Of a stretch of 64,000 nucleotides of DNA, positions 21,948 to 31,681 are shown piece after piece. Source of the stretch: Streptomyces sp. TLI_105 (GTDB lineage: Bacteria > Actinomycetota > Actinomycetes > Streptomycetales > Streptomycetaceae). How positions within the stretch are numbered: position 1 is the stretch's first letter; every line of letters begins with the position of its first letter. The notes below the pieces were generated by a model, which worked only from the letters and a program-made list of their open reading frames with translations, was not told where the DNA came from and did not search any database. The position numbers and the translations under genes were made by a program. The stretch covers positions 5,915,501 to 5,979,500 of the forward strand of contig NZ_FNSM01000001.1 of the NCBI RefSeq assembly GCF_900105415.1. Reading direction: 5' to 3'.

Positions 21948-23456
21948 TCAGAGCTCGCCGGCGGCCGTGCGCTCGGCCAGCTTCACCAGGGTGCGGACCG
22001 AGGAGCCGGTGCCGCCCTTCGGGGTGTAGCCGTACGGGGCGCCCTCGTGGAAGGCCGGGCCCGCGATGTCCAGGTGGGCCCAGGTGATGCCCTCGCCCAC
22101 GAACTCCTGCAGGAAGAGACCGGCGACCAGGCCGCCGCCCATCCGGACGCCCATGTTCGCCATGTCGGCGGTGGGGGAGTCCATGGTCTTGCGCAGGTCC
22201 GCGGGGAGCGGCATCGGCCAGGACTGCTCGCCGACCTCCTCGGCGATCTCGTGGATCGCGGTCCGGTAGTCGTCGTCGTTGGCCATGATGCCGAAGGTGC
22301 GGTCGCCGAGCGCCAGGACCATCGCGCCGGTCAGGGTCGCCACGTCGACGATTGCGTCCGGGTGCTCCTCGGAGGCCCTGGTGATCGCGTCGGCGAGGAC
22401 GAGCCGGCCCTCGGCGTCGGTGTTCAGGACCTCGACGGTCTTGCCGCTGTACATGCGCAGCACGTCACCCGGGCGGGTGGCGGAGCCGGACGGCATGTTC
22501 TCGGCGAGGGCGAGCCAGCCGGTGACGTTGACCTCCAGGCCGAGGCGGGCCGCGGCGACGACGGCGGAGAACACGGCGGCGGCGCCGCTCATGTCGCACT
22601 TCATCGTCTCGTTGTGGCCGGCCGGCTTCAGGGAGATGCCGCCCGAGTCGTAGGTGATGCCCTTGCCGACGAGGGCGAGGGTCTTCTCCGCCTTCGGGTG
22701 GGTGTAGGCGATCCGGACCAGGCGCGGCGGGTTCACGGAGCCGACGCCGACACCGAGGATGCCGCCGTAGCCGCCCTTGGCGAGCGCCTTCTCGTCGAGG
22801 ACCTGGACCTTGAGGCCGTGCTCCTTGCCAGCGGCCTGGGCGACGGCGGCGAAGGCGGCCGGGGTCAGGTCGTTCGGCGGCTGGTTGATCAGGTCGCGGG
22901 CGCGGTTGATCTCCTCGGCGACGGCCTGGGCGCGCTCGGCGGCGGCCTTGTGGGCCTTGTCGCGCGGCTTGGCGCCGAGCAGGGCCACCTCGGCGAGGGG
23001 CTTCTTCGCGTCCTTGCCGTTCTCCTGGTAGGCGGTGTACGCGTACGCGCCGAGCAGGGCGCCCTCCGCGATGGCGGCGGCGTCGTCGGCGGTGGCGATC
23101 GGCAGCGCGAACGCGGCCTTCTTCGAGCCGGTCAGGGTGCGGGCGGCCGTGCCGGCGGCGCGGCGCAGGATCTCCGCGTCGAAGGACTCGCCGTCCTCGG
23201 GGGCCGCGCCGAGGCCGACGGCCAGGACGACGGGGGCCTTGAGACCGGCGGGGGCGGGCAGCTTCGTCGCCTCACCTTCGGCACCCGAGGCGCCCAGGGT
23301 CTCCAGGACGGCGGCGAGCCGGCCGTCGAAGGCCTTGTCGACGGCCTCGGCGCCCGGGGCGACGACCAGCGTCTTCCCGGACTTCGCGACGCCGACGACG
23401 AGGGCGTCGGCGCGCAGCGTCGCCGCGCCGGCCGTGCTGAGAGTGAGAGCAGTCAC
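21948..23456 (-). CDS. pepA: Leucyl aminopeptidase (M17)
   Basis: 502 residues. Cytoplasmic two-metal aminopeptidase releasing N-terminal residues. The M17 catalytic blocks are present: GKGITYDSGGISLKP with the metal-binding Lys and Asp, and the family signature NTDAEGRL. The N-terminal third is the variable macro-like domain. GTG 23456 (VTALTLSTAG) gives the usual Streptomyces N-terminus although its ribosome site is weak; the frame is open 48 codons further up. Single-gene unit with its own terminator. Confidence 0.95.
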   Translation of the reverse strand: MTALTLSTAGAATLRADALVVGVAKSGKTLVVAPGAEAVDKAFDGRLAAVLETLGASGAEGEATKLPAPAGLKAPVVLAVGLGAAPEDGESFDAEILRRAAGTAARTLTGSKKAAFALPIATADDAAAIAEGALLGAYAYTAYQENGKDAKKPLAEVALLGAKPRDKAHKAAAERAQAVAEEINRARDLINQPPNDLTPAAFAAVAQAAGKEHGLKVQVLDEKALAKGGYGGILGVGVGSVNPPRLVRIAYTHPKAEKTLALVGKGITYDSGGISLKPAGHNETMKCDMSGAAAVFSAVVAAARLGLEVNVTGWLALAENMPSGSATRPGDVLRMYSGKTVEVLNTDAEGRLVLADAITRASEEHPDAIVDVATLTGAMVLALGDRTFGIMANDDDYRTAIHEIAEEVGEQSWPMPLPADLRKTMDSPTADMANMGVRMGGGLVAGLFLQEFVGEGITWAHLDIAGPAFHEGAPYGYTPKGGTGSSVRTLVKLAERTAAGEL

Positions 23457-23759: not shown

Positions 23760-25847
23760 ATGGACTCCGACCGAATCCGTACGCCCAGAACCGCGCCCCG
23801 CACCGCCCGCACCGCGCCCCGCACGGGCAGGATCGCGACCCTCGCCGCCGCCGCGCTGCTCGCCACCGTCCTCCCGACCGCGCAGGCGGTCGCCGAGACG
23901 CCGCCCCGCGTGGACCTCACCGTCCTCGTCGTCGACGACGGCGGCAGCGCGGTCGGCGCGATCACCGCCGAGCTCCGGGCCACCGGCGTCCCGTACCGCA
24001 GGATCGACCTGGACGACCCGAACCGGCCCGTCCTGGACACGGCCTTCCTCAGCGAACCCTCCGACAGCGCGACCGGACGGCCCCGCGCCAAGTACCAGGG
24101 CGTCGTCCTGCCCCACGAGAGCGCCTTCGGCCCCGACTCCGCCGAACAGACCGCCCTCCAGGCGTACGAGCGGGCCTTCGGCATCCCCCAGGTCGACGCC
24201 TACACCTGGTCGCACCCCGGCGTCGGCCTCGACTACACCGACCAGGGCGGCTGGTCCGGCGTCCTCGACGGGACCACCGCCGGCGTCACCGCCGCGGGAC
24301 GGGCGGGCCCCTTCCGCTACCTCGCCGGGGCGCTCACCTTCGAGGACAACGACCCCACGATCGCCGAGAGTTACGGCTACGCGGGCCGCCCCCGCGCCGG
24401 CTACACCAGCTACCTCGACATGCCCGTCGACGGCGGCCGGGCCAGCCTCGTCGGCGAGTACGCCACCGACGGACGCCGCGAACTCGTCGTCACCTTCGCC
24501 TACAACCAGTACCAGCGGCAGTTCCGCGCCCTCGCCCGCGGCATCGTCGACTGGCTCACCCAGGGCGTCCACCTCGGACAGAGCCGCAACTACCTCTCCG
24601 TCCACGTCGACGACGTCTTCGCCCCCGACGCCCGCTGGGACCCCGCGCTGAACTGCACCCCCGGCGACTTCGACTGCGTCGGCGACGACGGAGAGGGCGC
24701 GAACCCCATCCGCATGACGGCCGCCGACGCCCAGTACGCCGCCGCCTGGCAGAAGTCCTCCGGCTTCAAGCTCGACATGGTCTACAACGGCGGCCAGGGC
24801 GAGCAGTGGAAGACCGAGCACGGCGGCACCGACCCGCTCACCGACCGGCTCGTCGCCGACCGCGCCCAGTACCGGTGGATCAACCACACCTACACCCACC
24901 CCTTCCTCGGCTGCGTCCAGGACAACACCGTCGTCCCCTGGCGGTGCGCCACCGACACCGCCGGCAACACCCTCTGGGTCAGCCGCTCCGAACTCTCCGG
25001 CCAGATCCGCGACAACCACGCCTGGGCCGTCGGCAAGGGCATCTCCGTCGACCGTTCCGAACTCGTCACCGGCGAGCACTCCGGCCTCAGGACCCTGCCC
25101 CAGCAGCCCGCCGACAACCCCAACCTCGCCGGCGCCCTCGCCGACAACGGCGTGAAGTGGACCGCGAGCGACAACTCCCGCGAGCCCGAGCAGCGCGCCG
25201 TGGGCACCGGCGCCGCGAGGACCGTGCCCCGCCACCCGATGAACGTGTACTACAACGTGGGCACCGCCGCAGAGATGACCGACGAGTACAACTGGATCTA
25301 CACCTCCCGCGCCGACGGCGGCAGCGGCGTCTGCGAGTCCAACCCGGCCTCCACCTGCCTGCCCGCCCCGCTCCCCACGGCCACCGGCTACGCCGACCAC
25401 ATCGTGCCGCAGGAAGCCCGCACCGCCCTCTCCCACGTCCTCGGCAACGACCCCCGGCCGCACTACGTCCACCAGTCCAACCTCGCCGAGGAGCGCCTCC
25501 TCTACCCCGTCCTCGACCGCGTACTCGCCGACTACCGGGCCCTGTTCGCGGCGAACGCGCCCCTGGTGAACCCGGCCCAGAAGGACGTCGGCACCGAACT
25601 GAACCGCCGCGCCGCCTGGGACCAGGCCGTCGCCGCCGGAAAGGTCACCGCCTACCGCGTCGGCACCACGGTCACCATCAAGGCCCCCTCCGGCGTCACC
25701 GTGCCCGTCACCGCCCCCGAGGGCACCCGCAAGCGGCTCCTCCTCGGCACCACCGCCTTCGGGACGCCCTACGCGGGCACCCGCTCCGCCTGGACCACGC
25801 CCGAACCGCTCCAGACCACCGTCACACTCACGCTCCCGACCGCCTGA
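23760..25847 (+). CDS. Secreted Agd3-like polysaccharide deacetylase (CE18 type)
   Basis: 695 residues. An Arg-rich N-terminus and hydrophobic stretch (IATLAAAALLATVLPTAQAV) ending in AVAET form a signal peptide, so the protein is exported. The middle has a NodB-like metal site: HVDD (H282-D285) as motif 1 and NHTYTH (H376, H380) as motif 2. Length and sequence blocks (YNQYQRQFRALARGIVDWLT, PQQPADNPNLAGALADNGV) resemble the fungal Agd3 family, which removes acetyl groups from galactosaminogalactan. Strong ribosome site. First gene of the operon, 26 bases before the glycosyltransferase gene. Exact substrate is inferred from its partners. Confidence 0.75.
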   Translation: MDSDRIRTPRTAPRTARTAPRTGRIATLAAAALLATVLPTAQAVAETPPRVDLTVLVVDDGGSAVGAITAELRATGVPYRRIDLDDPNRPVLDTAFLSEPSDSATGRPRAKYQGVVLPHESAFGPDSAEQTALQAYERAFGIPQVDAYTWSHPGVGLDYTDQGGWSGVLDGTTAGVTAAGRAGPFRYLAGALTFEDNDPTIAESYGYAGRPRAGYTSYLDMPVDGGRASLVGEYATDGRRELVVTFAYNQYQRQFRALARGIVDWLTQGVHLGQSRNYLSVHVDDVFAPDARWDPALNCTPGDFDCVGDDGEGANPIRMTAADAQYAAAWQKSSGFKLDMVYNGGQGEQWKTEHGGTDPLTDRLVADRAQYRWINHTYTHPFLGCVQDNTVVPWRCATDTAGNTLWVSRSELSGQIRDNHAWAVGKGISVDRSELVTGEHSGLRTLPQQPADNPNLAGALADNGVKWTASDNSREPEQRAVGTGAARTVPRHPMNVYYNVGTAAEMTDEYNWIYTSRADGGSGVCESNPASTCLPAPLPTATGYADHIVPQEARTALSHVLGNDPRPHYVHQSNLAEERLLYPVLDRVLADYRALFAANAPLVNPAQKDVGTELNRRAAWDQAVAAGKVTAYRVGTTVTIKAPSGVTVPVTAPEGTRKRLLLGTTAFGTPYAGTRSAWTTPEPLQTTVTLTLPTA

Positions 25848-25873
25848 CCAGCACGTCCTGGGGGGACCCGCTC

Positions 25874-27403
25874 ATGCCGAGCAGTGGCCGTCACGTCACC
25901 ATGCTCACCGAAGGCACCTACCCGCACGTCCACGGCGGCGTCAGCACCTGGTGCGACCAGCTCGTCCGCGGCATGCCGGAGGTCGACTTCGAGATCCTCG
26001 CCCTCACCGGCAGCGGCCGCGAACCCGTCACCTGGGAGCTGCCGCCCAACGTCACCCGGCACACCGCGTACCCCCTGTGGGGACCTCCGCAGAGTCCGGC
26101 CGTGCGCCGGCCCCTGCGGGGGCGCGAACGACGCCGCTTCCTCGACGCGTACGAGCGCCTCCTGCTCGCCCTCCTCGACCCCGAGGCGGACTGCGACTTC
26201 GGCACCGGCCTGTACGAACTCGCCGAACTCGCCCGACAGGGAAGGCTGACCACCGCACTCCGCTCCGAGCGGGCCCTCCGCTCCCTCATGTGGATCTGGA
26301 CCATGCCGCACCTGCCCACCCTCGCGGCCCGGCCCACCGTCCACGACGCGCTCACCGCCACCGACCTGCTCGAACACGCCCTGCGCCCGCTCGCCGCCCG
26401 GATAGCCACCGGCGGCGTGGCGCACGCCGTCTCCAGCGGCCTCGCCACGCTGCCGGCGCTCGCCGCGCAGCACTTCGAAGGGGTGCCCTTCCTGCTCACC
26501 GAACACGGCATCTACCTCCGCGAGCGCTACCTCGGCTACCGCACCGAAGCGCAACGCTGGCCCGTCAAGGCCCTCATGCTCGGCTTCTACCGCGAGCTCA
26601 ACACCCTCGGCTACCGCAAGGCCGACCTCATCACCCCCTGCAACCAGTACAACCGGCGCTGGGAGGAGCGCGGCGGAGCCCCCGCCGACCGCATCCGCAC
26701 CGTCTACAACGGCGTCGACCCGGCCCTCTTCCCCGAGGCCGGACCCGAACCCGAGACCCCCACCCTCAGCTGGTGCGGCCGGGTCGACCCCATCAAGGAC
26801 CTGGAGACCCTGATCAGGGCGTACGCGATCTCCCGCGCCGAACTCCCGGAGCTGCGGCTCCGCCTCTTCGGCCCGGTCCCGGCCGGGAACGAGGACTACC
26901 TGACCCGCCTGGAGAAACTCGCCGCCGAACTCGGCGTCGCCGACGGCGTCTCCTTCGAGGGCCGCGTCTCCGACGTGCCCTCCGCCTACGCGGCCGGCAG
27001 CGTGGTCATGCTCTCCTCCATCAGCGAGGGCTTCCCCTTCTCCCTCATCGAGGCCATGTCCTGCGGCCGCGCCACCGTCTCCACGGACGTCGGAGGCGTA
27101 CGGGAAGCCGTCGGCGACACCGGGATCGTCGTCCCGCCCCGCGAACCGGCCGTCATGGCCGCCGCCGTCTCCGCACTCCTCCGCGACGGCGCCCGCCGCG
27201 CCGAACTGGGCCGCCGGGCCCGCCAACGGGTGATCGACCAGTTCACCCTGCACCGCTCGGTGGACGGCTTCCGGCAGATCTACCGCGAACTCGCGGGCAC
27301 CCGCCCGCCGCGCCCGGCCCCGGCCGTCACCTCCCTCCGCCTGAGCATCCCCGCCCCGCGCCGCACCTCACCGGCCCTCGTCACCGGAGGCACCCCGGCA
27401 TGA
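25874..27403 (+). CDS. PelF-like GT4 glycosyltransferase with DUF3492 N-domain
   Basis: 509 residues. Begins with TMLTEGTYPHVHGGVSTWCD, the signature of the DUF3492 / PelF N-terminal half. The C-terminal half is a GT-B GT4 donor domain: SWCGRVDPIKDLETLIRAY, the E-x7-E motif in SEGFPFSLIE (E385, E393) and DVGGVREAVGD. PelF uses UDP-GalNAc to build Pel. No signal peptide; acts in the cytoplasm, presumably with the membrane protein encoded next, whose ATG overlaps its stop (ATGA). GGGGGA ribosome site. Donor specificity is inferred, not seen. Confidence 0.85.
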   Translation: MPSSGRHVTMLTEGTYPHVHGGVSTWCDQLVRGMPEVDFEILALTGSGREPVTWELPPNVTRHTAYPLWGPPQSPAVRRPLRGRERRRFLDAYERLLLALLDPEADCDFGTGLYELAELARQGRLTTALRSERALRSLMWIWTMPHLPTLAARPTVHDALTATDLLEHALRPLAARIATGGVAHAVSSGLATLPALAAQHFEGVPFLLTEHGIYLRERYLGYRTEAQRWPVKALMLGFYRELNTLGYRKADLITPCNQYNRRWEERGGAPADRIRTVYNGVDPALFPEAGPEPETPTLSWCGRVDPIKDLETLIRAYAISRAELPELRLRLFGPVPAGNEDYLTRLEKLAAELGVADGVSFEGRVSDVPSAYAAGSVVMLSSISEGFPFSLIEAMSCGRATVSTDVGGVREAVGDTGIVVPPREPAVMAAAVSALLRDGARRAELGRRARQRVIDQFTLHRSVDGFRQIYRELAGTRPPRPAPAVTSLRLSIPAPRRTSPALVTGGTPA

Positions 27404-29283
27404 GCGGCTCCCTCTGGCTGAAACCCCCGACGACGGGGGCGTCCCCCCTCCCCGGCATCCCCCGGCCCCGCCGCCGGCCCCCGGCGGCCCACCTCGACGA
27501 AGCCCCACCCGCCCGGCCGGTTCCCGCCGAGCCGCCGACCGCCACCGCGCCCTCGGCTCCGGCGGGGCGGGGCGGGGCCCCGGCACCGGCCGACACCGCC
27601 GGCGCGGACGCGGGGGCTTCGCCCCGGGCGCCCCGGGCGGGCGCCGCCGCCCCCGCGGGGCATCCGACCTCGACCGGCACCACCCGGCCCGAGGCCCCCG
27701 CAGGGCAAGCGGCCCCGCTCCCGCAGGACTCCGCCGGGCCGCCCACTCCCGCCGGTCCCCGGGCCCCGGCCGGGCCGTCGGTCATCGCCGTGCCCTCGGC
27801 GCCGACACCGCAGGCCGGGGCACCGGCTCCGGCGGGGGCGACCCGGCCCGCGGCCGTCGCCGGGCGGCCGGCCCCGATCGGCCCGCCCCCCGCCGGGGGC
27901 GAGCCCGCCGCCGCGGACGCCCCGCCGCTCGCCGGCCCACCCCCCGCCGGAGGCGGCCTCGCCGCCGATCCGCTCGACGAACTCGCCGCGCGGCTCGACG
28001 GGTTCGTCGCCGCCGCCGTGCACCCGGACGAGATCGCCGCCATCCTCGAGTCCGACGGCATGACCGACGAGCACATCCGGCTCACCTACGGCCGCGCCGA
28101 CTCCTTCTCCCTCGCCGAGGACCTCTACGCGCGCGTGGAGCGGCGCCACCCCGAGCCGTCGGCGCCGTCCGCCGGTGTCTGGCACGGCGAACTGTGGGGC
28201 TGTCTGCTGCGCGGGCTCGTCTTCGCGCTCCCCGGCCTCGCGTACGTCCTCGCCGCCCCGCTGCTCGCCGCGGAACACGGCCGGTTCGGACTCCCCGCCG
28301 GGACCGTCCCGCTGCTCGCCGGTGCCGTCACCGGCTGGCTCTGGAACCAGGCGCTCTCCCACCGCGCGTACACCTGGCTCGGCCTCGGCGACCGAACCGC
28401 CGCCGCCCGCGCGCTGCTCACCGGCGCCCCGGCCGGCGCCCTCGCGGGGGCGGCCGTCGCCCTCGTGACCGCCGGGCCCGGCGAGACCCCGGCCGCCGTC
28501 TTCGCCGCCGGCCAGTCGCTCTACCTCGCCGCCGCGACCGTCCTGCTCGTCCTCGGCCGCGAACGGGCCCTGTTCTGCGCCCTGCTGCCGCTCGCCGGCG
28601 CCGTCCCCGCCTTCCGCTGGGACCTGCCCGACGCGCTGCGCGCCGGACTCCTCCTCGCCTCGCTCGCCGCGTCCGTCGCCTTCGCCGCGGCCGCCCTGCG
28701 CCCCGGCGTCCGTCGGGGCGCGGCGGGCCGCGGCGGACCCCCGCGCGCGGCCTCCCTCCCGTACGGCCTCTTCGGCCTCGGCAGCGGCCTGCTCGTCCTC
28801 CGCGCGGGCGTGGCCGACACGCTGGTGAGCGGCGCGGGGGCGGTCATCGCGCTCACCCTCTCCATGGGCCCCGCCGAGTGGCTCCTGCACCGCTTCCGGG
28901 GCGAGAGCCTGACCCGGCTGCGGACCCTCACCACCGCCCGCGAGTTCCGCCGGGCGGTCACCGGCACCCTCGTGCTCTGCCTCGGCGGCTACCTCACCGT
29001 GCTCCTCGCCCTCACCCTCGGCGCGACCCTGGCCTGGCCCGGCGCGCCGTGGCCGACGCTCCCGCGCCTGGTCACCCTGCTCCTGATCGGGACCGTGCTC
29101 TGGCTCGGGCTGCTGCTCCAGGCCTTCGGCGCGGTGCTCAGCGCCGCCACCGTCTGCCTGTTCGCGGCGGCCGCGCAGACGGTGCAGCCGGCGGCGGGCC
29201 CGGTGGCCGCCGGGGGAGCGGCGGCGGTGCTCGCCGTCCTGACCTCCGCCCTGCTGGTACGACCGACCGCCCACCGTGCCTAG
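27400..29283 (+). CDS. Polytopic membrane protein of the polysaccharide operon
   Basis: 627 residues. Residues 1-190 are a disordered Pro/Ala/Gly-rich region (repeated APAGP, PPPAGG). Then comes a short folded segment (AAVHPDEIAAILESDGMTDE) and about 11-12 hydrophobic helices (LRGLVFALPGLAYVLAAPLL to the end). No family recognised with certainty; position and topology suggest the exporter or flippase partner of the GT, the role PelG has in Pel systems. Its start overlaps the GT stop. Its TAG stop codon is formed by the CTAG sequence at the left end of a MITE-like element, so the original C-terminus may have been longer. Confidence 0.7.
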   Translation: MSGSLWLKPPTTGASPLPGIPRPRRRPPAAHLDEAPPARPVPAEPPTATAPSAPAGRGGAPAPADTAGADAGASPRAPRAGAAAPAGHPTSTGTTRPEAPAGQAAPLPQDSAGPPTPAGPRAPAGPSVIAVPSAPTPQAGAPAPAGATRPAAVAGRPAPIGPPPAGGEPAAADAPPLAGPPPAGGGLAADPLDELAARLDGFVAAAVHPDEIAAILESDGMTDEHIRLTYGRADSFSLAEDLYARVERRHPEPSAPSAGVWHGELWGCLLRGLVFALPGLAYVLAAPLLAAEHGRFGLPAGTVPLLAGAVTGWLWNQALSHRAYTWLGLGDRTAAARALLTGAPAGALAGAAVALVTAGPGETPAAVFAAGQSLYLAAATVLLVLGRERALFCALLPLAGAVPAFRWDLPDALRAGLLLASLAASVAFAAAALRPGVRRGAAGRGGPPRAASLPYGLFGLGSGLLVLRAGVADTLVSGAGAVIALTLSMGPAEWLLHRFRGESLTRLRTLTTAREFRRAVTGTLVLCLGGYLTVLLALTLGATLAWPGAPWPTLPRLVTLLLIGTVLWLGLLLQAFGAVLSAATVCLFAAAAQTVQPAAGPVAAGGAAAVLAVLTSALLVRPTAHRA

Positions 29284-29488
29284 GGGGTGTCCGGAAAGTC
29301 CCGCCCGGCTCGCGACGTCCGGCACGCACGCCCGCCGCGTCGTCGTCGGCCGCCATGGTCCCCCGTAGCCCTTCGGGCACGGGAGGTGCCCCCACCGCCC
29401 TTGTCGACCTCCTCCGCCTCGCGCTCGCACGCACCGGACGCCGCGAGCCCTGCCCTCCGGGCAGACGGCGCTACTTTCCGGACACGCC
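29284..29488. mobile_element. MITE-like element flanked by CTAG, inside the operon
   Basis: 205 bases bounded by GGGGTGTCCGGAAAGT (29284-29299) and its inverted copy ACTTTCCGGACACGCC (29473-29488), 15 of 16 matching. CTAG stands directly outside both ends (29280-29283, 29489-29492), as a 4-base target duplication of IS5-like elements would. No transposase. The inner block CTTCGGGCACGGGAGGTGCC is shared with the element at 8096-8372. It lies between the membrane protein gene and the GH135-like gene and provides the stop codon of one and the AGGGA ribosome site region of the other. Confidence 0.7.
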
Positions 29489-29499
29489 CTAGGGACGCC

Positions 29500-30120
29500 A
29501 TGACGAACCCCTCCCTCCTGGTGCCGTACTACGAGCACCCGTCCGAACGCCCCGAGGCCTGGTCGGCGCTCGTGGACGCGGCGTCGTCCCTGTACGGCGT
29601 CGTCCTCAACCCGGCGAGCGGCGCCGGCGAGGCCCCCGACCCGGCGTTCGCCGAGGCCGCCGGGCGGCTGCGGGCGGCCGGGGCGCGGGTCCTCGGCTAC
29701 GTGGACACCGCCTACGGACGCCGCCCGCACGCCGAGGTCGTCGCCGAACTGGTCCGCCACCGCGACTGGTACGGCGCCGACGGCGCCTTCCTGGACCAGG
29801 TGGCGACCGCGCCCGCCGCCCTCGCCCACTACCGCCGCATCGCGGTCGCCGCCCGCGCCGCCGGGGCCGCGACCCTGGTCTTCAACCACGGGGCCCACCC
29901 GGCCCCCGGCTACGAGGCGCAGGCCGACCTCCTCGTCACCTTCGAGGGCCCCTGGGACACGTACCGGACGCTCGATCTGCCGGTCGCCGCCCACTACTGC
30001 CACCTCGTCTACGCCGCCCCGGCGGACTTCCGCCCGGCCACCCCGGTGCACTGCGCCGTCCCCGGCACGGGCGCGCACCCCTGGGGCACCCTCCCGCACC
30101 TCCTGGCGGCCGCCCGATGA
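29500..30120 (+). CDS. Spherulin-4 family protein, Sph3-like (GH135) glycoside hydrolase
   Basis: 206 residues. SLLVPYYEHPSERPEAWSAL and GVVLNPASGAGEAPDPAFAE are the opening strands of the spherulation-specific family 4 barrel; further on are LGYVDTAYGRRP, YGADGAFLDQ and LVTFEGPWDTY, whose acidic residues align in pattern with the catalytic region of fungal Sph3, an endo-acting hydrolase of galactosaminogalactan. No signal peptide, so it may be cytoplasmic or leave by another route; fungal Sph3 is membrane-bound. Start ATG 29500 lies 6 bases after AGGGA. Overlaps the next gene (ATGA). Confidence 0.8.
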   Translation: MTNPSLLVPYYEHPSERPEAWSALVDAASSLYGVVLNPASGAGEAPDPAFAEAAGRLRAAGARVLGYVDTAYGRRPHAEVVAELVRHRDWYGADGAFLDQVATAPAALAHYRRIAVAARAAGAATLVFNHGAHPAPGYEAQADLLVTFEGPWDTYRTLDLPVAAHYCHLVYAAPADFRPATPVHCAVPGTGAHPWGTLPHLLAAAR

Positions 30121-30911
30121 GGGCCGCCCGCCCGATGGCTCTGCTCACGGGGGTCCTGCTCCTCGCCACGGCCTGTACGGCCGCCCCCGACCCGGACTCC
30201 AAGACGACCGACGACCGCTGGCGGCCGGCCCCCGGGCTCACCTGGCAGTGGCAGCTCAGCGGCAGGCTCGATCCGTCCGTCGACGTCCCGGTGTACGACA
30301 TCGACGGCTTCGACCATCCGGCGTCGACCGTCGCCGACCTCCACCGCCGGGGCCGCAAGGTCGTCTGCTATCTGTCCACCGGCGCCTGGGAGGACTTCCG
30401 TCCCGACGCCGACGACTTCCCGAAGGCCCTCCTCGGCAAGGGGAACGGCTGGGAGGGCGAGCGCTGGCTGGACGTCCGCCGCACCGACCTCCTCGGGCCC
30501 CTCATGGCGAAGCGCCTCGACATGTGCCGGGACAAGGGCTTCGACGCCGTCGAGCCCGACAACATGGACGGCTACAAGAACCGCACCGGCTTCCCCCTGA
30601 CCGCCGCCGACCAGCTCCGCTACAACCGCCTCATCGCCGGCATGGCCCATGAGCGGGGCCTCGCGGTCGGCCTCAAGAACGACCTGGACCAGATCCCCAA
30701 GCTGCTGCCGGACTTCGACTTCGCGGTCAACGAGCAGTGCGCGGAGTACGACGAGTGCGGCCGCCTCGCCCCGTTCGTCGCGGCGGGCAAGGCCGTCTTC
30801 CACGTCGAGTACGAGCTGACGACGGACCAGTTCTGCCCCCAGGCCCGGAAGCTGGGCCTCAGCTCCATGCGGAAGCGGTACGAACTGGACGCCTGGCGCC
30901 GACCCTGTTAG
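30117..30911 (+). CDS. GH114-like endo-alpha-1,4-polygalactosaminidase lipoprotein, Ega3-like
   Basis: 264 residues. A short basic N-terminus, hydrophobic core and LLATAC (C20) indicate a lipoprotein signal, placing it on the outer face of the membrane. Family blocks follow: VPVYDIDGFDHPASTV, KVVCYLSTGAWEDFRPD, GFDAVEPDNMDGY and FAVNEQCAEYDEC, which carry the acidic residues expected for catalysis in GH114. Ega3 of Aspergillus cuts the GalN-rich parts of galactosaminogalactan; PelA has a related domain. Last gene of the operon; its stop overlaps the cobS stop on the other strand. Confidence 0.88.
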   Translation: MRAARPMALLTGVLLLATACTAAPDPDSKTTDDRWRPAPGLTWQWQLSGRLDPSVDVPVYDIDGFDHPASTVADLHRRGRKVVCYLSTGAWEDFRPDADDFPKALLGKGNGWEGERWLDVRRTDLLGPLMAKRLDMCRDKGFDAVEPDNMDGYKNRTGFPLTAADQLRYNRLIAGMAHERGLAVGLKNDLDQIPKLLPDFDFAVNEQCAEYDECGRLAPFVAAGKAVFHVEYELTTDQFCPQARKLGLSSMRKRYELDAWRRPC

Positions 30912-31681
30912 CCCGCCGAGCCCAGCGTCAGCGCGACCAGGGTCGCCGTCGCCGCCGTCTCCTCCACCGCGCCGAACACGTCGCCCGTCACCCCGCCGAA
31001 GCGCCGCACGCACCGGCGGAGCAGCAGCGCCGACGCCCCGAGGCCCGCGCCGGCCGCCAGGACGTCGCGGACGGCGTCGTACGGGGAGAGCAGGAGGCCC
31101 GTCGCGGCGCCGAGGACCAGGACCAGGGCGGTCGTGAGGGTCGCGGAACGGGTCGGGACCGTCGCGGCGACGATCGCGCCGAGGCCCTCGGGGCGGGCCG
31201 CCGGGACGCCGTGGCGGGACGCGTGGGTGAGGGCGAGGCGGGCCACGGTGGCGGCGAGGGCCGCGGCGACGGTCCCGCGCTCCCAGCCCTCCCCGTACAG
31301 CTCGTACAGCGCGGCGACCTGGGCGAGCAGGACCAGGACCAGGGCGATGACGCCGAACGGGCCGATGTCCGACTGCTTCATGATGCGCAGCGCGTCCTCG
31401 GCGGGCTTGGCGCTGCCGAGGCCGTCGGCGGTGTCCGCGAGGCCGTCGAGGTGGAGGCCCCGGGTGAGCAGGGCGGGGACGGCGGTGGTGACGACGGCCG
31501 CGAGCAGCGGGCCCGAGCCGAGCAGCAGGAACGCCGCGCCGGCCGCGGCGGAGCAGAGCCCGACGACCAGCCCCGCGAGCGGGGCGCTGAGCATGCCGGC
31601 GCGCGCCGCGTCCCGGTCCCAACGGGTGATGCGGGCGGGGAACACGGTGAGGGTGCCGAAGGCGAAACGCAGGCCGTCCAT
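30908..31681 (-). CDS. cobS: Adenosylcobinamide-GDP ribazoletransferase
   Basis: 257 residues from ATG 31681 (MDGLRFAFGTLTVFP, the usual opening). Integral membrane enzyme joining adenosylcobinamide-GDP and alpha-ribazole in the last steps of cobalamin synthesis. Family blocks are visible: RGLHLDGLADTADGLG with the Asp-rich metal site, MKQSDIGPFGVIAL and FGGVTGDVFGA. A longer start at 31750 would overlap the divergent gene and is unlikely. Separated from cobT and cobU by a membrane-lipid gene pair. No cobalamin riboswitch is visible in the short upstream gap. Confidence 0.94.
   Translation of the reverse strand: MDGLRFAFGTLTVFPARITRWDRDAARAGMLSAPLAGLVVGLCSAAAGAAFLLLGSGPLLAAVVTTAVPALLTRGLHLDGLADTADGLGSAKPAEDALRIMKQSDIGPFGVIALVLVLLAQVAALYELYGEGWERGTVAAALAATVARLALTHASRHGVPAARPEGLGAIVAATVPTRSATLTTALVLVLGAATGLLLSPYDAVRDVLAAGAGLGASALLLRRCVRRFGGVTGDVFGAVEETAATATLVALTLGSAG

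Follow-up and report, generated by a model that had tools for sequence, protein, structure and literature searches.

A five-gene Streptomyces operon with CE18, PelF-type GT4, GH135 and GH114 genes: a probable bacterial pathway for a galactosaminogalactan-like polymer

We analyzed a stretch of 64,000 nucleotides from Streptomyces sp. TLI_105 (NZ_FNSM01000001.1, positions 5,915,501 to 5,979,500; hereafter the window), in which five genes form one plus-strand unit (window positions 23760-30911) encoding, in order, a CE18 deacetylase, a PelF-type glycosyltransferase (GT) of family GT4, a membrane protein, a spherulin-4 protein of family GH135 and a GH114 protein. As judged from the encoded protein families, this operon probably directs the synthesis, export and trimming of an alpha-1,4-linked N-acetylgalactosamine (GalNAc) polymer that is deacetylated in part, with a division of labour as in the fungal galactosaminogalactan pathway. 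An initial annotation of the same DNA had proposed this likeness, and the coordinates and the Pfam and NCBIfam families obtained here agree with the five genes, their order and their place as given there.

According to this model, UDP-GalNAc would be provided by GalE enzymes encoded elsewhere in the genome and polymerized in the cytoplasm by the PelF-type GT4, which would act together with a membrane protein of predicted MATE/MOP fold as one synthase, the membrane protein translocating the chain. Outside the cell, the exported CE18 enzyme would strip acetyl groups to yield a cationic polymer, and the GH114 lipoprotein, placed at the cell surface, would cleave the stretches that have been deacetylated. 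The GH135 protein, having no visible leader, would in turn work on the cytoplasmic side, where it would cut chains that are still fully acetylated and so clear or release product that has stalled. The GT and membrane protein genes overlap by 4 bases, as do the spherulin-4 and GH114 genes.

By its sequence relationships, the deacetylase is, as the initial annotation had suggested, akin to fungal Agd3 and thus a CE18 enzyme, not a member of CE4. Alignment A1 comprises the window protein and 13 relatives; each of the 14 matches the Pfam family Agd3_CE at E<=0.01, and one of them (P0164) exceeds the Pfam cut-off. A distant relative (L160) exceeds the cut-offs of both Agd3_CE and CBM87_Agd3. When the PDB was searched with profile A5, built from 11 deacetylase sequences including those of a second Streptomyces type (see below) and of four other actinobacteria, Agd3 (6nwz) ranked first (E=1.3e-14), the match being strong over profile positions 36-280 (the CBM87 part and catalytic motif CM1) and weak, taken alone, over positions 384-671. 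The CE18 catalytic motifs are described in Bamford 2020 (PMC7229062; here and below, statements from the literature rest on excerpts of the cited papers) and correspond, in window numbering, to D284/D285 (CM1), H376/H380 (CM2), R491 (CM3) and H571 (CM4); every one of the 81 sequences compared, from the window and 80 related loci, keeps all of these residues. The A5 alignment pairs D284/D285 and R491 with D377/D378 and R613 of Agd3, whose numbering is that of the 6nwz chain plus 122 (chain residues 255/256 and 491, respectively); CM2 lies outside this alignment and was recognized from the pattern HxxxH, whereas the assignment of CM4 was made by eye (HQSN against HQAN). A signal peptide ending in AVA was recognized by eye. 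A CE4 (NodB) identity was considered and rejected, as Polysacc_deac_1 had no match at E<=1 in the window protein and Agd3 is the best solved relative found with the wide family profile; Polysacc_deac_1 reaches E=0.011, under its cut-off, in the distant relative L160. The CE18 family profile also gave a weak second match to the heparan sulfate N-deacetylase domain of NDST1 (E=0.004). Internal stop codons appear in some of the deacetylase matches, mostly in those reaching query residue 694, and we infer that these are end-of-gene stops.

The GT matches DUF3492 (PF11997, E=5e-59) and the NCBIfam PelF equivalog NF038011 (172.2 bits against a cut-off of 100), which bears out the PelF/DUF3492-type GT4 named in the initial annotation; its E385 and E393, as well as D284/D285, H376 and H380 of the deacetylase, were found at the positions given there. 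The membrane protein has no match in Pfam or NCBIfam. Its hydropathy profile contains 11 segments at a cut-off of 1.3 (nine at 1.5), consistent with the 11-12 helices originally counted. An AlphaFold2 (AF2) model of residues 190-627 (predicted local distance difference test score, pLDDT, 86.6; predicted template modelling score 0.80) was used for fold searches, in which MATE, WzxE and MurJ were the top PDB matches, pointing to a predicted flippase of the MATE/Wzx/MurJ-type (multidrug/oligosaccharidyl-lipid/polysaccharide, MOP) fold. A small helical domain in the same protein is strongly conserved in alignment A2, has local matches in other Streptomyces types and is also common to natural GT-flippase fusions, a sequence pattern for its motif between GT and flippase recovering it in five of ten fusions tried and failing in the other five. 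PelG identity by sequence was tried for the membrane protein and rejected (no PF16933 match).

Single-chain GT-flippase proteins of ~950-1200 residues occur in bacteria (P0244, P0249, P0343 and 30 more), with names that include Anaerolineae and Caldilineaceae. P0343, from Anaerolineae, was the one of seven fusions scanned to match PF16933, though weakly and with a score under the cut-off (E=4e-4). A tree of PelF-type proteins requires at least two gains or losses of the fused state. This tree has long deep branches and several joins flagged as unsafe, and only the separation of three Streptomyces GT types was used from it; these form separate clades (support 100/99, 100/99 and 100/100).

Both hydrolases belong to the expected families and keep both catalytic residues, so that they are not the unrelated TIM barrels whose finding the initial annotation had named as telling against it. 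The GH114 protein exceeds the Pfam cut-off (PF03537, E=3e-89, 298.7 bits) and matches Ega3 (6oj1) with E=2.8e-59; its D148 and E206 align with Asp189 (nucleophile) and Glu247 (acid/base) of Ega3. All 57 sequences compared keep this pair, and a loose lipobox is seen in 55 of them, making the protein a probable lipoprotein. Similarly, the GH135 protein is over the cut-off for Spherulin4 (PF12138, E=2.6e-27, 96.3 bits) and matches Sph3 (5c5g, E=7e-8), with nucleophile D99 and acid/base E149 kept in 66 of 66 sequences. D99 and E149 align with the catalytic Asp and Glu222 of Sph3, the aligned Asp lying 56 residues before Glu222, i.e. at residue 166, which we take to be the catalytic position. The residue is printed as Asp196 in PMC12054363.

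The GH135 proteins appear to lack a signal peptide. Judged by position and by eye, none is present in the window or in 65 of 65 related loci, where the nearest start codon lies 0-9 residues ahead of the first conserved barrel motif (65/65) and this motif starts <=56 bases after the membrane-protein stop codon (60 of the 64 measurable loci). Some of these loci have additional in-frame start codons upstream, and the sequence preceding the motif is, by eye, unlike a signal peptide; the same holds for eight further loci, which belong to the second type or to other actinobacteria. Fungal Sph3 is described as being membrane-bound, acting outside the cell, being specific for the acetylated polymer and being essential for synthesis (PMC12054363). 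Export or membrane anchoring with action outside, which is a trait of Sph3 and not part of the CAZy family definition, was not found for the bacterial GH135. A cytoplasmic GH135 would meet acetylated chains only, which fits the acetylated-polymer specificity of Sph3, and action at the synthase before export would explain the need for a glycosidase in synthesis. The protein might, on this view, edit the nascent chain.

To evaluate conservation, one genome per species was scanned with the deacetylase alignment, and the best 80 of 510 relatives, all from Streptomyces, were used. Thirteen of these 80 loci lack the right-border gene at contig ends, leaving 67 uncut loci, 52 of which contain all five genes by tblastn in conserved order between pepA and cobS. 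Such an arrangement is not a chance one, because the same order recurs at the same chromosomal site in these loci. Among the incomplete uncut loci, GH114 alone is missing from nine and GH135 alone from three. Of the remaining three, the first keeps just CE18 and GH135, the second just CE18, and the third CE18, GT and part of the membrane protein. Two loci (L093 and L106) retain CE18, with or without GH135, and neither GT nor membrane protein was seen there.

Co-occurrence was also assessed genome-wide. A DUF3492 protein is encoded in 141 of 151 sampled Streptomyces genomes (none in ten), one of the strong type (E<1e-50) in 64 and CE18 at E<=1e-30 in 71. All 64 genomes with a strong-type GT are also CE18-positive (Fisher p=4e-35, a value only indicative because the genomes are related), and for 70 of the 75 strong GT genes a CE18 gene of the same orientation lies no more than 4 kb upstream. 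The seven CE18 genomes lacking a strong GT represent partial or divergent cases, or ones probably cut by a contig end. Across the class, DUF3492 was found in 23 of 196 sampled genomes, namely in 19 of 19 Streptomyces, nine of them with the strong type and all 19 with a match of the weaker type seen at a third, CE18-free locus (see below), and in 4 of 177 others. All four non-Streptomyces loci contain a CE18 relative (27-45% identity by six-frame tblastn). Co-occurrence of the five genes, for which the initial annotation had proposed a survey, is found in the genus, and relatives of these genes are also grouped outside it. One further observation comes from G006, a non-Streptomyces actinobacterium in which CE18, GalE, GT, membrane protein, GH135 and GH114 lie in one locus (L158:221-11038); this locus holds counterparts of all five fungal cluster genes, with the CE18 gene on the opposite strand. 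GalE adjoins the GT there and scores 337 bits against a cut-off of 262.

Regarding sugar supply, no epimerase gene is present in the window operon, and two GalE genes over the cut-off lie at 4.89 and 5.49 Mb of the same genome, in agreement with the earlier expectation that this function is encoded elsewhere. The window type (CE18 >1000 bits) occurs in 42 of 151 Streptomyces genomes, a second type (800-950 bits) in 37, and both in 11. Seven loci of the second type were read (L042:2039-10703, L035, L037, L039, L040, L043 and L047), and each encodes a LegB-like 4,6-dehydratase, a sugar nucleotidyltransferase and a short-chain dehydrogenase/reductase (SDR), together with, within the stretch fetched, CE18 (6/7), GH135 (6/7) and GH114 (3/7). 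The LegB match amounts to 446.7 bits, just under the cut-off of 475, and this type is possibly a 6-deoxy-amino-sugar version of the polymer pathway. A third type, free of CE18, was read in eight genomes including that of TLI_105 and comprises GT, membrane protein, SDR and spherulin-4 adjoining a moeB-like gene; in the spherulin of this type the acid/base glutamate is gone in 8/8 and the nucleophile in 2/8.

We tentatively put forward a wider proposal, to which we give appreciably less credence than to the pathway itself and which may well prove wrong. Bacterial GH135 would edit or release the nascent acetylated GalNAc chain at the synthase inside the cell, before export, and Streptomyces would harbour three branches of the system. 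One would be the window type; a second, equipped with nucleotide-sugar genes, might make a 6-deoxy-amino-sugar polymer; and the third would be the widespread locus that has no deacetylase, its dead GH135 serving as a non-enzymatic partner of the synthase.

Several observations weigh against the proposed galactosaminogalactan-like pathway. The Agd3_CE match of the window deacetylase itself is sub-threshold (E=7e-5, 22.3 bits against a cut-off of 27.6); PDB searches with this protein as a single sequence or with a profile of its close relatives returned no Agd3 match, so that Agd3 is recovered only by a profile containing distant relatives; and the AF2 model of the deacetylase, from a 14-row alignment, reached a pLDDT of 39 and was not used. 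For the membrane protein, the Foldseek result was borderline, with a single match at E<=0.001 and TM-scores between 0.36 and 0.45 among the top 26 rows, middling Z-scores are easily obtained for helical bundles, and PelG (PF16933) had no match at E<=10. A cytoplasmic GH135, for which the lack of a signal peptide was judged by position and by eye, departs from the fungal model of action outside. Moreover, GH114 or GH135 is absent in 12 of 67 uncut loci that keep the other four genes, so that the two are not required everywhere, and CE18 is missing upstream of 5 of the 75 strong GT genes.

The nearest alternative to a GalNAc polymer is one of the same general kind built from another sugar, such as GlcNAc, a GalNAc/GlcNAc mixture, a Gal-containing chain or a 6-deoxy-amino sugar, the specificities of the hydrolases and deacetylase having drifted along. 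The extra sugar genes of the second type (7/7 loci) imply that the sugar may vary between cluster types, and the PelF of Pseudomonas aeruginosa is drawn with both UDP-GalNAc and UDP-GlcNAc (Whitfield 2020, PMC7112168). The window operon, however, carries none of the LegB-like, nucleotidyltransferase or SDR genes, its GH114 is close to Ega3, and GalE adjoins the GT in one relative, all of which make another sugar unlikely here. That the operon is a variant of the strictly defined Pel operon (pelDEADAFG), making Pel under cyclic di-GMP control, appears quite improbable: the PelF-equivalog GT, the predicted MOP-type fold and the weak, sub-cut-off PelG match of the Anaerolineae fusion would suit it, whereas a CE18 deacetylase and hydrolases of GH135 and GH114 rather than GH166 speak against it. 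In addition, the window contains no gene beyond the five between pepA and cobS and hence no PelD or PelE within the operon, the remaining genome not having been searched for the two, so that the definition of a pelDEADAFG operon already fails.

Least probable of all, and barely credible in our view, is a role in attack or feeding, in which secreted CE18 and GH114 would degrade the galactosaminogalactan of neighbouring fungi. Streptomyces is a soil genus, and two of the five enzymes would act outside the cell. An S. griseus endo-galactosaminidase is also on record (cited in Bamford 2020, PMC7229062). However, the same operon encodes a polymerizing GT and a flippase, the GT being accompanied by CE18 in every genome with the strong type, and is without an uptake transporter; its GH135 has no visible signal peptide, and its GH114 resembles a lipoprotein and not a free enzyme. 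Taken together, these considerations favour synthesis, export and trimming of a partly deacetylated GalNAc polymer, and the initial interpretation is supported by the sequence comparisons as far as enzymes, gene order and co-occurrence are concerned. Among the reference proteins it had proposed for comparison, Agd3, PelF, Sph3 and Ega3 were matched and PelG was not matched by sequence.

The features of the window and its third-type counterpart are listed below. Among the border genes, pepA lies immediately left of the deacetylase gene in 80 of 80 loci, and cobS is the right neighbour in most of them, with an extra gene in between in some. A miniature inverted-repeat transposable element (MITE)-like insertion sits in the 216-base gap preceding the spherulin-4 gene; its predicted fold has -117 kcal/mol, and it has 30 matches in its own genome, itself counted, all others being partial. 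The element is missing from L049, L050 and L051, the closest relatives that were read, where <30 bases separate the membrane-protein stop codon from the first conserved GH135 residues. It may reduce translation of both downstream hydrolase genes.

Table. Coordinates of the operon genes, their borders and related features (window positions unless a locus is given)
Feature	Location	Strand	Length or basis
pepA (leucyl aminopeptidase), left neighbour, outside operon	21948..23456	-	conserved border
Deacetylase gene, CE18 (Agd3-type), exported, CBM87-like N-terminal region	23760..25847	+	695 aa
GT4 gene, PelF-type (DUF3492), predicted cytoplasmic polymerase	25874..27403	+	509 aa
Membrane protein gene: Pro/Ala-rich linker, small helical cytoplasmic domain, predicted MATE/MOP-fold flippase	27400..29283	+	627 aa
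Small helical domain directly N-terminal of flippase part	27967..28167	+	conservation in alignment A2, local matches
MITE-like insertion, inverted ends around GTGTCCGGAAAGT, no functional part of the operon	29284..29496	.	213 bases
GH135 gene (spherulin-4/Sph3-type), putative alpha-GalNAc endo-hydrolase, no visible signal peptide	29500..30120	+	206 aa
GH114 gene (Ega3-type), putative endo-alpha-1,4-galactosaminidase, probable lipoprotein	30117..30911	+	264 aa
cobS (cobalamin synthase), right neighbour, convergent, outside operon	30908..31681	-	border
Third-type locus of the same genome (second DUF3492 locus)	L033:3838-9025, ~2.9 Mb		

Overall, the analysis would place a pathway for a cationic polymer of the Pel/galactosaminogalactan type in a filamentous genus that is amenable to genetics and in which pellet formation is a practical fermentation problem (PMC5972031 and others); enzymes from both fungi and bacteria serve as reference for it. 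It also points to a bacterial counterpart, divided over two genes, of the fungal Gtb3 synthase, identifies a likely fold for the exporter and raises the question of why the GH135 hydrolase carries no signal peptide. In the top-ranked open-licence literature, we found no experimental study of such a polymer or operon in Streptomyces.

Compared with known systems, the operon resembles the galactosaminogalactan cluster of Aspergillus fumigatus (uge3, gtb3, agd3, sph3 and ega3) in its linked genes, its CE18, GH135 and GH114 families and its GT with a membrane part. It differs in that GT and membrane part are two genes, whereas Gtb3, described as an integral membrane glycosyltransferase (PMC12054363), joins them; in the absence of an Uge3-type epimerase from the operon; and in a GH135 without the visible signal or anchor expected from membrane-bound Sph3, which acts outside. 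With the Gram-positive Pel operon pelDEADAFG (Whitfield 2020, PMC7112168, which also draws P. aeruginosa PelF as using both UDP-sugars) it shares a PelF-type GT, a separate exporter gene and an exported deacetylase, but it has CE18 and GH135/GH114 and is without PelD/PelE and a PelG-family sequence match. MatAB makes another polysaccharide in Streptomyces, one that takes part in the aggregation and adhesion of hyphae and differs in being poly-beta-1,6-GlcNAc (PNAG) and in its genes (PMC5972031). The closest precedent is Bamford 2020 (PMC7229062), which describes bacterial operons where CE18 is accompanied by GH114, a GT located in the cytoplasm and a membrane protein with multiple spans, joined by spherulin-4 in some Actinobacteria, and proposes gene transfer between bacteria and fungi; its tree covers 35 bacterial species, and the excerpts name no Streptomyces operon. 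The window operon has the same kinds of genes as these Agd3-containing operons and is a member of a kind already in print, to which the present analysis adds genus-wide counts, a predicted flippase fold, the GT-flippase fusions, the leaderless GH135 and three cluster types.

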